From a bacterium (GTDB lineage Bacteria > JAJVIF01 > JAGGVT01): a stretch of DNA of 17,337 bases. The stretch is from contig JAGGVT010000094.1 in assembly GCA_021157815.1 (NCBI GenBank), positions 1-17,337 on the forward strand. The letters run 5' to 3'. How positions within the stretch are numbered: the first letter of the stretch is position 1; each line of letters begins with the position of its first letter. Below, in pieces: positions 4,497 to 17,288 of the stretch. A program made the position numbers and the translations under genes. The notes below the pieces were generated by a model that was not told the origin of the DNA, searched no databases, and saw nothing but the letters and a program-made list of their open reading frames with translations.

Positions 4497-4626
4497 CCCC
4501 CACCCCAGCCCTCCCCGCGAGCGGGGAGGGAGAATGTTCTTGCTTCCTTTCGCAAGTGCATATACCAGCTATATTATTTGCACATGCAAAAAAATCTCCC
4601 CCCGCTCGCGGGGGATCAAGGGGGGG
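4497..4626. repeat. GC-rich double-hairpin repeat, copy 1 (130 bp)
   Basis: The left arm 4497-4532 contains CCCTCCCCGC-GA-GCGGGGAGGG, a near-perfect hairpin. The right arm 4596-4626 contains CCCCCGCTCGCGGGGG followed by a G-run. The two arms are approximate reverse complements of each other, so the whole unit can also fold back on itself. The middle (about 60 bp, AT-richer) keeps a weak inverted symmetry around GTGCA...TGCAC. A second copy of nearly equal length lies at 12908-13036. The unit fills the gap between two convergent genes and may help end transcription in both directions. Confidence 0.8.
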
Positions 4627-4671: not shown

Positions 4672-5523
4672 TTAGAAAAGCTTACGCTGTTTTCTCGCGC
4701 TATTTCTTAGCTTTTCAAAATACTGTTTTGTCCACCTGTCAGCTTTCTCAATATTTGGATTGCGCGCAAGCATTTCTTTAAAGCGAGCGCCGTGTATAAC
4801 ACGTTTGTTATTCTGCTTTGTTGTTGGCACAAGATGATGAACCAGCTCATGGTAAACCACTGCTTCAACCACATATTTCGGCACATACGACCTGTCAAGC
4901 AGTGAATTTATCCGTATCAGCCCGCAATCATCCAGCCTTTTGTATGTTCCCCATGTAATCGAACGATAGCCGCCGGATGCACTCCGCCAGGCGATAAGAA
5001 CACCATCAGTTTGACACGTGTATTTCCTCATCACTTCATTCAGTATTTCATCGAGATTATGATGATTCCCGACTGGGCCATAGCAGTATTTCAAATGATT
5101 CGTTGACAGTGTGTTACGGTCTTTTCTCAGTGAACGTTCTGATAGAAATCTGTTGATTCGCTCATCATCGCCCCGACGGCGTTTCCTGAGGATATGCCTG
5201 AAAAGAGAACGAAGCGTTTCATCATCGGCTTCGAGAAATACCTTTTGCAACCTGAGGCATTTTCGCTTGTCAATCGATGCCATAATTTGGACATTGTCAT
5301 GCCAGATAATGTCGTAAAAGCTCAATCCCTCATCCTTTGCGATTTTATTTATTTCTTCCGTACGCCTGTTTCTTTCAGCATGAAGTTCAGCAAGTTCTCT
5401 GTCGGATTTCGACGTGTTTTCACTTTCCTCCTCTTTCTTTGTTTCAGAGGGCAGGTCGGATTGTTTTTCGACAGGGATATCGAAAAGCGTCAATTGATTT
5501 TCATCTGTTTGGTTTTTCGCCAC
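4672..5523 (-). CDS. SprT-like zinc metalloprotease with possible clamp-binding motif
   Basis: 283 residues. The C-terminal part carries the zinc-protease signature H225-E226-L-V-H229 (VVYHELVHH) and a third histidine in VIHGARF (H244). This is the SprT/Spartan/WLM-type arrangement, in which three His bind Zn2+ and Glu is catalytic. Residues 10-14 are QLTLF, close to the bacterial sliding-clamp (DnaN) binding consensus QL[SD]LF, and are followed by a charged, low-complexity linker (about 18-45). Residues 41-135 are helical and rich in Arg/Lys. SprT-family proteins in eukaryotes (Spartan) digest DNA-protein crosslinks and dock on PCNA through a similar short motif; that role here is inference. 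The start is GTG 5523, the first after an in-frame stop, without a clear Shine-Dalgarno. A terminator lies just upstream, so expression needs read-through or a hidden promoter. Confidence 0.85.
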   Translation of the reverse strand: MAKNQTDENQLTLFDIPVEKQSDLPSETKKEEESENTSKSDRELAELHAERNRRTEEINKIAKDEGLSFYDIIWHDNVQIMASIDKRKCLRLQKVFLEADDETLRSLFRHILRKRRRGDDERINRFLSERSLRKDRNTLSTNHLKYCYGPVGNHHNLDEILNEVMRKYTCQTDGVLIAWRSASGGYRSITWGTYKRLDDCGLIRINSLLDRSYVPKYVVEAVVYHELVHHLVPTTKQNNKRVIHGARFKEMLARNPNIEKADRWTKQYFEKLRNSARKQRKLF

Positions 5524-5559: not shown

Positions 5560-5587
5560 AAAAAGACCCGCTCGTATATGGCGGGTC
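5560..5587 (-). terminator. Rho-independent terminator of the PKD lipoprotein gene
   Basis: On the minus strand GACCCGC (5587-5581) pairs with GCGGGTC (5571-5565) around a nine-base loop and is followed directly by TTTTTAT. It starts 26 bases after the stop codon of the gene ending at 5613, as expected for an intrinsic terminator, and it separates that gene from the SprT-like gene. Confidence 0.8.
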
Positions 5588-12907: not shown

Positions 12908-13036
12908 CCCCCTCCCCAGCCCTCCCCGCAAGCGGGGAGGGAGCAAACAGTCCCCCTCGTTCGCGATTGTATTGACCGGACACTTGGGACGCAAATGAAA
13001 AACATCTCCCCCCGCTCGCGGGGGGATTAGGGGGGG
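12908..13036. repeat. GC-rich double-hairpin repeat, copy 2 (129 bp)
   Basis: The left arm 12908-12943 (with CCCTCCCCGC-AA-GCGGGGAGGG) and right arm 13006-13036 (CTCCCCCCGCTCGCGGGGGG then ATTA and a G-run) match copy 1 at 4497-4626 in sequence, order, orientation and total length (129 versus 130 bp). The interiors have diverged considerably. This copy lies between the lon-type gene and the C_GCAxxG gene. Its right arm ends 13 bases before the next start codon, so its hairpin could affect initiation there. Confidence 0.8.
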
Positions 13037-13518: not shown

Positions 13519-13557
13519 TGTCATTCCGGGCTTGACCCGGAATCCATTCTTTTTTTT
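13519..13557 (+). terminator. Repeat-derived hairpin with T-run, likely terminator
   Basis: ATTCCGGG (13523-13530), CTTGA, CCCGGAAT (13536-13543) form a perfect 8-bp stem, followed after CCATTC by eight T residues (13550-13557). It begins eight bases after the stop codon of the C_GCAxxG gene. Bases 13519-13547 are identical to 17212-17240, so the terminator is made from a dispersed repeat. The six-base gap between stem and T-run is longer than usual. Confidence 0.6.
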
Positions 13558-16585: not shown

Positions 16586-17134
16586 ATGCCCTCCAAATAC
16601 ACAAGACACAATATTCCTGGACATGCCCACGAGCTAACATTCTCATGCTACAAACGCCAACCTTTTCTTAAAAACGATAATATAAAAGAAATACTCGCAA
16701 TTGCAATAAACAACGCAAGTAATAAACATCATTTCGACACTTGGGCTTATGTATTCATGCCGGAACATGTCCACATCCTGATTTATCCCCAGGAAGAGAT
16801 CTATTCAATTTCCAATATTCTGAAATCAATAAAACTATCTACATCAAAAAAAGTAATAGCACGCCTTAGAAAAAAGAACTCACAATACTTAAAATATATG
16901 CGAACAGGCTTAAAACAACCGGAATATCGCTTCTGGCAGGACGGCGGAGGATATGACAGGAATTATATTACTCCAAAAGAAATCCTGAAACAAATAAAAT
17001 ACATTCACAATAACCCTATCAGACGAGATTTTGTTGATGACCCGACAAAGTGGAAATGGTCAAGTGCCGGTTTATGGTTAAGGGGAGAAGATGGTCCTGT
17101 TGCAATAAATAAAGAATCAATACCGATGATCTAA
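16586..17134 (+). CDS. REP-associated tyrosine transposase (RAYT, IS200-like HUH enzyme)
   Basis: 182 residues, full length for the family. Conserved features are the HUH metal-binding motif H61-V-H63 in FMPEHVHILI, the FWQDGGGYDRNY block (116-127), and IKYIHNNPIRR (137-147) with the probable catalytic Tyr139. The closing PTKWKWSSA is also conserved. HUH transposases cut single-stranded DNA and form a 5'-phosphotyrosine link. RAYTs act on REP hairpins and are normally host-domesticated, single-copy enzymes. No Shine-Dalgarno is seen before ATG 16586 (the upstream bases are AACTTAAAACAAC), so translation may be weak. No promoter was found between the pseudopilin terminator and the gene. The coding sequence looks complete and undamaged, so the enzyme may be active. 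Confidence 0.93.
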   Translation: MPSKYTRHNIPGHAHELTFSCYKRQPFLKNDNIKEILAIAINNASNKHHFDTWAYVFMPEHVHILIYPQEEIYSISNILKSIKLSTSKKVIARLRKKNSQYLKYMRTGLKQPEYRFWQDGGGYDRNYITPKEILKQIKYIHNNPIRRDFVDDPTKWKWSSAGLWLRGEDGPVAINKESIPMI

Positions 17135-17211: not shown

Positions 17212-17288
17212 TGTCATTCCGGGCTTGACCCGGAATCCATCTTGATAAGCGATAAAGGCATGGATTCTGAATCAAGTTCAGAATGACA
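17212..17288. repeat. Head-to-head pair of 29-base palindromic repeats
   Basis: The left unit 17212-17240 is identical to 13519-13547. The right unit 17260-17288 is an inverted, diverged copy. Each has a perfect 8-bp stem: ATTCCGGG/CCCGGAAT at 17216-17236, and ATTCTGAA/TTCAGAAT at 17264-17284. The five-base loop is the same in both once orientation is matched (CTTGA). Three base pairs differ between the two stems and all three keep pairing. The 19-base spacer carries no signal. Confidence 0.8.

Follow-up and report, generated by a model that had tools for sequence, protein, structure and literature searches.

The analysed stretch of bacterial DNA, 17,337 nucleotides long and referred to here as the window, carries on its minus strand a GTG-initiated gene (4672..5523) for a 283 amino acid protein that is likely, at a probability of roughly 0.68, to be a bacterial counterpart of Spartan, a clamp-tethered protease that would clear proteins stuck on DNA. 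The clamp-type motif, its position and selective conservation, the protease fold and catalytic residues, the disordered tail and the clamp pocket of the same genome were shown, while clamp binding, proteolysis, the substrate and the repair outcome are inferred. The N-terminal QLTLF peptide would occupy the hydrophobic pocket on the beta sliding clamp (DnaN), and the flexible tether, whose length varies, would give the DNA-associated minigluzincin protease reach near loaded clamps at forks, gaps and repair patches. The protease would then degrade proteins that are crosslinked to DNA or jammed on it, allowing bypass by polymerases or excision to be completed. No binding or protease data support this reading, and the gene's own neighbours, which encode a PKD protein and EF-P, are not repair genes.

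The window protein, the only copy of the protease in its genome, contains the peptide NQTDENQLTLFDIP, with L11 and F14 within the predicted beta-clamp-binding motif QLTLF at residues 10–14 (5482..5496, minus strand, as for all features of the gene). The motif is followed by a charged disordered linker at residues 15–33 (5425..5481) that is unconserved among homologues, a folded domain at residues 34–145 (5089..5424) and a catalytic minigluzincin/SprT domain at residues 150–272 (4708..5076), with the chain ending approximately 10 residues later. The AlphaFold2 model had a mean pLDDT of 85 with an unstructured N-terminus; residues 1–33 were modelled without structure, the first three ten-residue blocks scoring 46–54, while the core was mostly above 90. 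The charged, disordered linker proposed in the initial annotation was therefore confirmed, but the tail spans no more than some 33 residues in this protein because residues 34–145 form a folded domain.

The catalytic domain contains HELVH at residues 225–229 (4837..4851), providing zinc ligands and the catalytic glutamate, and a third zinc ligand at H244 (4792..4794). In an alignment of 62 sequences H225, H229 and H244 were invariant and E226 nearly so. Structural alignment of this domain gave Z scores of 11.7 for selecase, 11.1 for abylysin and 11.1 for jannalysin, 10.5 over 106 residues for human SPRTN and a weaker 6.6 for Wss1; Foldseek returned weak E-values (best 4.5e-3) despite a probability of 1.00. 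The Pfam SprT-like model PF10263 matched residues 201–254 at 20.3 bits, under its cut-off of 25.6, which was exceeded by the single-domain homologues L169 (40.9 bits) and L173 (38.4 bits). The window protein matched no named family in NCBIfam. The fold and residues identify it as a metalloprotease of the minigluzincin/SprT type, its proteolytic activity being inferred, and the SprT/Spartan-like catalytic part with HELVH and a third histidine, as originally proposed, is upheld.

The domain preceding the protease does not contain HExxH. When residues 32–150 were folded separately the model reached a pLDDT of 87 and was best matched by minigluzincins (selecase, PDB id. 4qhg, Z 7.5, 2.3 Å over 80 residues). 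The domain is thus probably a degenerate, catalytically dead second minigluzincin-like copy, although this rests on fold matches only and a Z score of 7.5 alone is no proof. Alignment of the N-terminal domain with the protease half using hhalign gave the expected register, but p was 0.12, which is not significant, and a sequence-based proof of duplication was dropped. Such a dead domain probably regulates the active site or holds DNA, although this is a weak inference.

A first contig scan using the single window protein as query recovered no relatives. Searching 59 genomes with the same protein gave relatives in 12, mostly from distant families, and the matched regions began downstream of the motif, yet the N-termini of these proteins show QLGLF, QLNLF, QLFLF, QLSLF and QMSLF. 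A profile search of 385 genomes produced matches in 74, and a scan of named genomes yielded 80 loci, almost all from Myxococcota. One profile (A1) included the motif and carried a risk of circularity, and a second, motif-blind profile (A5) was restricted to the part following the tail. In the phylum of genome G010, A5 matched 17 of 39 genomes, and 11 of 15 previously unseen loci carried the motif; circularity as the source of the enrichment was rejected on this basis. Many of the proteins found with A5 are shorter, lacking the N-terminal domain and keeping QLDLF, QVELF, QIELF or QFELF before the protease. Myxococcus and Citreicoccus genomes contain two or three paralogues (L066/L013, L015/L132, L006; L077, L115), two of them motif-bearing (QMSLF or QTSLF in one, QLGLF or QLALF in the other) and one without the motif. 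In a short SprT-like protein (L060, frame 3932 on the minus strand) the chain ends with QMALF, the same kind of tether placed at the C-terminus.

The published consensus for clamp binding is Q-phi-x-[L/M]-[F/L] or Q-phi-x-[L/M]-x-[F/L] (PMC13254535). Pentapeptides (QLDLF, QLELF, QLALF, QLTLF, QMDLF) and hexapeptides (QLSLPL, QLALPL, QLDLAF, QLSFEF, QLAFEF, QLEFSL) were both observed at homologue N-termini, usually starting at residues 2–14, and the QLxLF and QLxLxL/F forms interchange among homologues. Most fit the consensus, and the forms whose fourth residue is F or whose second is M are close variants of it. Motif frequency was measured in the N-regions of a diverse sample of 48 homologues from which the window's own gene was left out. 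The published consensus occurred in 13 (shuffled mean 1.95), the strict pattern Q[LIVA]x[LM]F in 9 (0.28 in shuffles) and an extended form admitting the variants observed in 22 (2.3 in shuffles); the extended form was also present in 72/80 of a Myxococcota-rich set against 1.1 expected. As a control, searching these proteins outside the N-region, in the core plus C-terminal part, gave 2/52 against 3.1 expected. Within the first 60 residues of 650 neighbouring ORFs QLxLF was absent and the extended form occurred three times, while QLxLF was found in 30 of 87 family members. Since these same sequences served to tune the extended form, the strict and published patterns provide a fairer test; all counts come from related sequences and are not independent events.

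Conservation was concentrated in the motif. Identity in one Myxococcota clade was 93% for the motif, 18% for the linker (lengths 44–205) and 71% for the core, and the corresponding values in a second clade were 89, 20 (lengths 27–187) and 72%; a third set, of closer relatives, gave 85, 52 and 89%. The motif was still present ahead of linkers of 165–205 residues. A conserved motif beside a variable linker is characteristic of a tethered short linear motif; the conservation is shown directly, and clamp binding is inferred. Mapping presence and absence onto a tree gave at least 17 changes of state as scored, with the caveat that some rows marked as motif-less carry the motif behind a long linker. 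About half of the diverse, very distant homologues have no recognisable N-terminal motif and, since so many relatives do without it, tethering is a lineage trait rather than universal. The initial annotation had placed QLTLF at residues 10–14 near the N-terminus, and this is strengthened by the homologues. Its concern that the motif arose by chance was not borne out by the shuffles, the background N-termini, the core control or the motif-blind profile, and its proposed check, a motif conserved while the linker is not, was positive in two clades. Homologues that keep the protease and lack the motif, which it considered refuting, were found only in part, among roughly half of the very distant sequences.

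A further concern was the GTG start, which has no Shine-Dalgarno sequence. No standard start codon other than this GTG separates the motif from the upstream stop, and close relatives from the same class (L002, L003) have an ATG start six codons ahead of the motif. A Shine-Dalgarno-like sequence precedes just 9 of 50 motif-bearing genes, so a start poor in this signal is usual for the family and the concern is answered. In many of these genes (among them those of L002, L003, L013, L027, L091, L092 and L143) a TTGA..TAnnnT promoter-like pair ends approximately 7–10 nt before the start, and these promoter-proximal starts suggest leaderless mRNA, inferred from sequence alone. No promoter of the window gene itself could be recognised by eye. 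The gene probably forms a separate transcript, because a terminator-like hairpin with a T-run (5560..5587, minus strand, read by eye) follows the upstream PKD gene.

The DnaN of the same genome was identified and matched to solved clamps. In E. coli numbering it keeps pocket residues T172, G174, R176, L177, P242, R246, V247, V360, M362, P363 and R365, and differs from E. coli at L155, H175, V344 and S346. Close to its C-terminus the genome's own Y-family polymerase (Pol IV) carries QLSLF; in the DnaE of this genome, QEQLF takes the place of QADMF in E. coli, the positional equivalence being our reading. Because the pocket is kept and both polymerases carry such motifs, the genome is inferred to use the same clamp-binding code, in the absence of binding data. 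Separately, a minus-strand frame of 1111 amino acids (L150, G000:C123) is the second DnaE-like frame of its genome and reads through YLPPLAGGLKGGE, which looks as though a palindromic repeat had been inserted in frame and translated.

The genes surrounding the protease were compared across genomes. RmuC is encoded directly upstream in 7 genomes of one phylum, an HhH-GPD base-excision glycosylase adjoins the gene in 3 genomes, and an MGMT-family gene adjoins a homologue on 2 cyanobacterial plasmids; the glycosylase-linked and MGMT-linked forms have no motif. The rmuC-adjacent genes encode single-domain SprT proteins with a clamp motif (L059/L165, L164, L166, L167, L168, L171, L172), and some pairs overlap or nearly overlap, which may point to an RmuC-SprT repair operon. 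The plasmid homologues (L154, 4668–5657; L155, 4584–5519) are each paired divergently with the neighbouring MGMT-family gene, and their N-terminal extension differs and lacks the motif. No repair-gene neighbour of the window gene is present in the window, and a conserved operon around it was looked for and not found. The parallel design for repair of DNA-protein crosslinks put forward in the initial annotation is supported, but remains an inference from SPRTN and from the DNA-repair neighbours of relatives. Phage spread of the family was rejected as no phage match was obtained, and plasmid spread was rejected as the only matches were cyanobacterial (22–28% identity), the three sequences examined having no N-terminal motif. 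The window also contains paired GC-rich palindromic intergenic repeats of REP/BIME-like type (4497–4532, 4588–4626, 12908–12943, 12998–13036, 13519–13547 and 17212–17240), and an IS200-like Y1 transposase gene at 16586–17134 could be the REP-associated transposase of these repeats.

Three other explanations were considered. The first is that the protease is clamp-tethered and mainly regulatory, trimming or removing clamp clients such as translesion polymerases and MutL, or processing the clamp itself. In its favour, partners crowd onto the clamp and use one and the same pocket (PMC9690074), and SPRTN, first tied to translesion synthesis, cleaves Chk1 that is not crosslinked as well (PMC7782752). 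However, the neighbours of relatives are the DNA-repair enzymes RmuC, HhH-GPD and MGMT, and long variable linkers suit non-specific reach more than a single defined client, making this reading unlikely. The second is that the peptide binds the protein's own active site or dead domain as an autoinhibitory propeptide, or binds a partner other than the clamp. Archaeal minigluzincins with the same fold have been solved as zymogens (4jiu, 4jix), but a clamp peptide accounts better than a contact within the protein for the exchange between QLxLF and QLxLxL/F, for a linker that varies in length up to 205 residues, and for a motif that occurs in single-domain homologues and occasionally at the C-terminus (QMALF, L060); there is very little to recommend this explanation. 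A chance match or mis-annotated start that leaves the motif outside the protein draws on the GTG codon, the missing Shine-Dalgarno sequence and a motif of just five residues, and is all but excluded by the 30/87 against 0/650 occurrence of QLxLF, the ATG codons of L002 and L003 and the lack of any other standard start.

The preferred reading remains a clamp-tethered protease acting on proteins stuck on DNA. A bolder version, which the evidence favours by a small margin, is that a widespread bacterial family of clamp-tethered SprT proteases, either tandem dead and active domains or single-domain, carries out replication-coupled crosslink proteolysis, and that this design was reached independently of Spartan with the peptide at the other end. 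Reviews frame bacterial crosslink repair as nucleotide excision and recombination, dedicated proteolysis having been discovered in eukaryotes (PMC6219452), and no protease appears in a recent compilation of partners of the bacterial clamp (PMC9690074). In the open-access literature searched, which leaves most subscription journals uncovered, no published account of a bacterial SprT protein bearing a clamp motif was found. If the reading is correct, proteolysis would join the jobs of the bacterial clamp, clamp tethering of a SprT protease would have evolved at least twice, and a gene would be available for testing in Myxococcus xanthus.

When the window protein was compared with known systems, the archaeal minigluzincins selecase, jannalysin and abylysin gave the nearest solved fold for the catalytic domain (Z 11–12) and the best match for the N-terminal domain (Z up to 7.5), although each consists of one small domain and has no clamp peptide. 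E. coli YggI/SprT belongs to PF10263, the family whose model the window protein matches at 20.3 bits, below the cut-off of 25.6. YggI lacks a canonical clamp motif at its N-terminus, the only match being a weak one (QANLKL) in what is likely a helix, and it contains a C-terminal cysteine-rich module that is absent here. E. coli Hda bears a hexapeptide clamp motif at its N-terminus. The placement in homologue L143, with QLSLPL at residues 3–8, is similar, while Hda is an AAA+ regulator of DnaA and no protease. In eukaryotes a PIP box that is required for dealing with protein obstacles recruits the protease FAM111A to the clamp (PMC7782752), but FAM111A is an unrelated serine protease. SPRTN (Spartan, DVC1) likewise joins a SprT/minigluzincin protease domain through disordered sequence to a peptide that binds the sliding clamp. 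Its PIP box, which binds PCNA, lies at the C-terminus, and SPRTN also has p97- and ubiquitin-binding motifs (SHP, UBZ) and a zinc-binding domain, whereas the window protein has an N-terminal bacterial clamp motif and a second folded domain before the protease. The zinc-binding module that follows the catalytic domain in both SPRTN and YggI is also missing. As the C-terminal modules are absent the window protein is not a SPRTN orthologue. The PIP box of human SPRTN is reportedly dispensable for fork localisation and recruitment (PMC7782752), and therefore the tether may add reach or timing without being needed for localisation. The window protein would still be SPRTN-like in the respect that matters, the combination of a protease with a clamp peptide, and the pairing in the two proteins is inferred to be a probable case of convergence.
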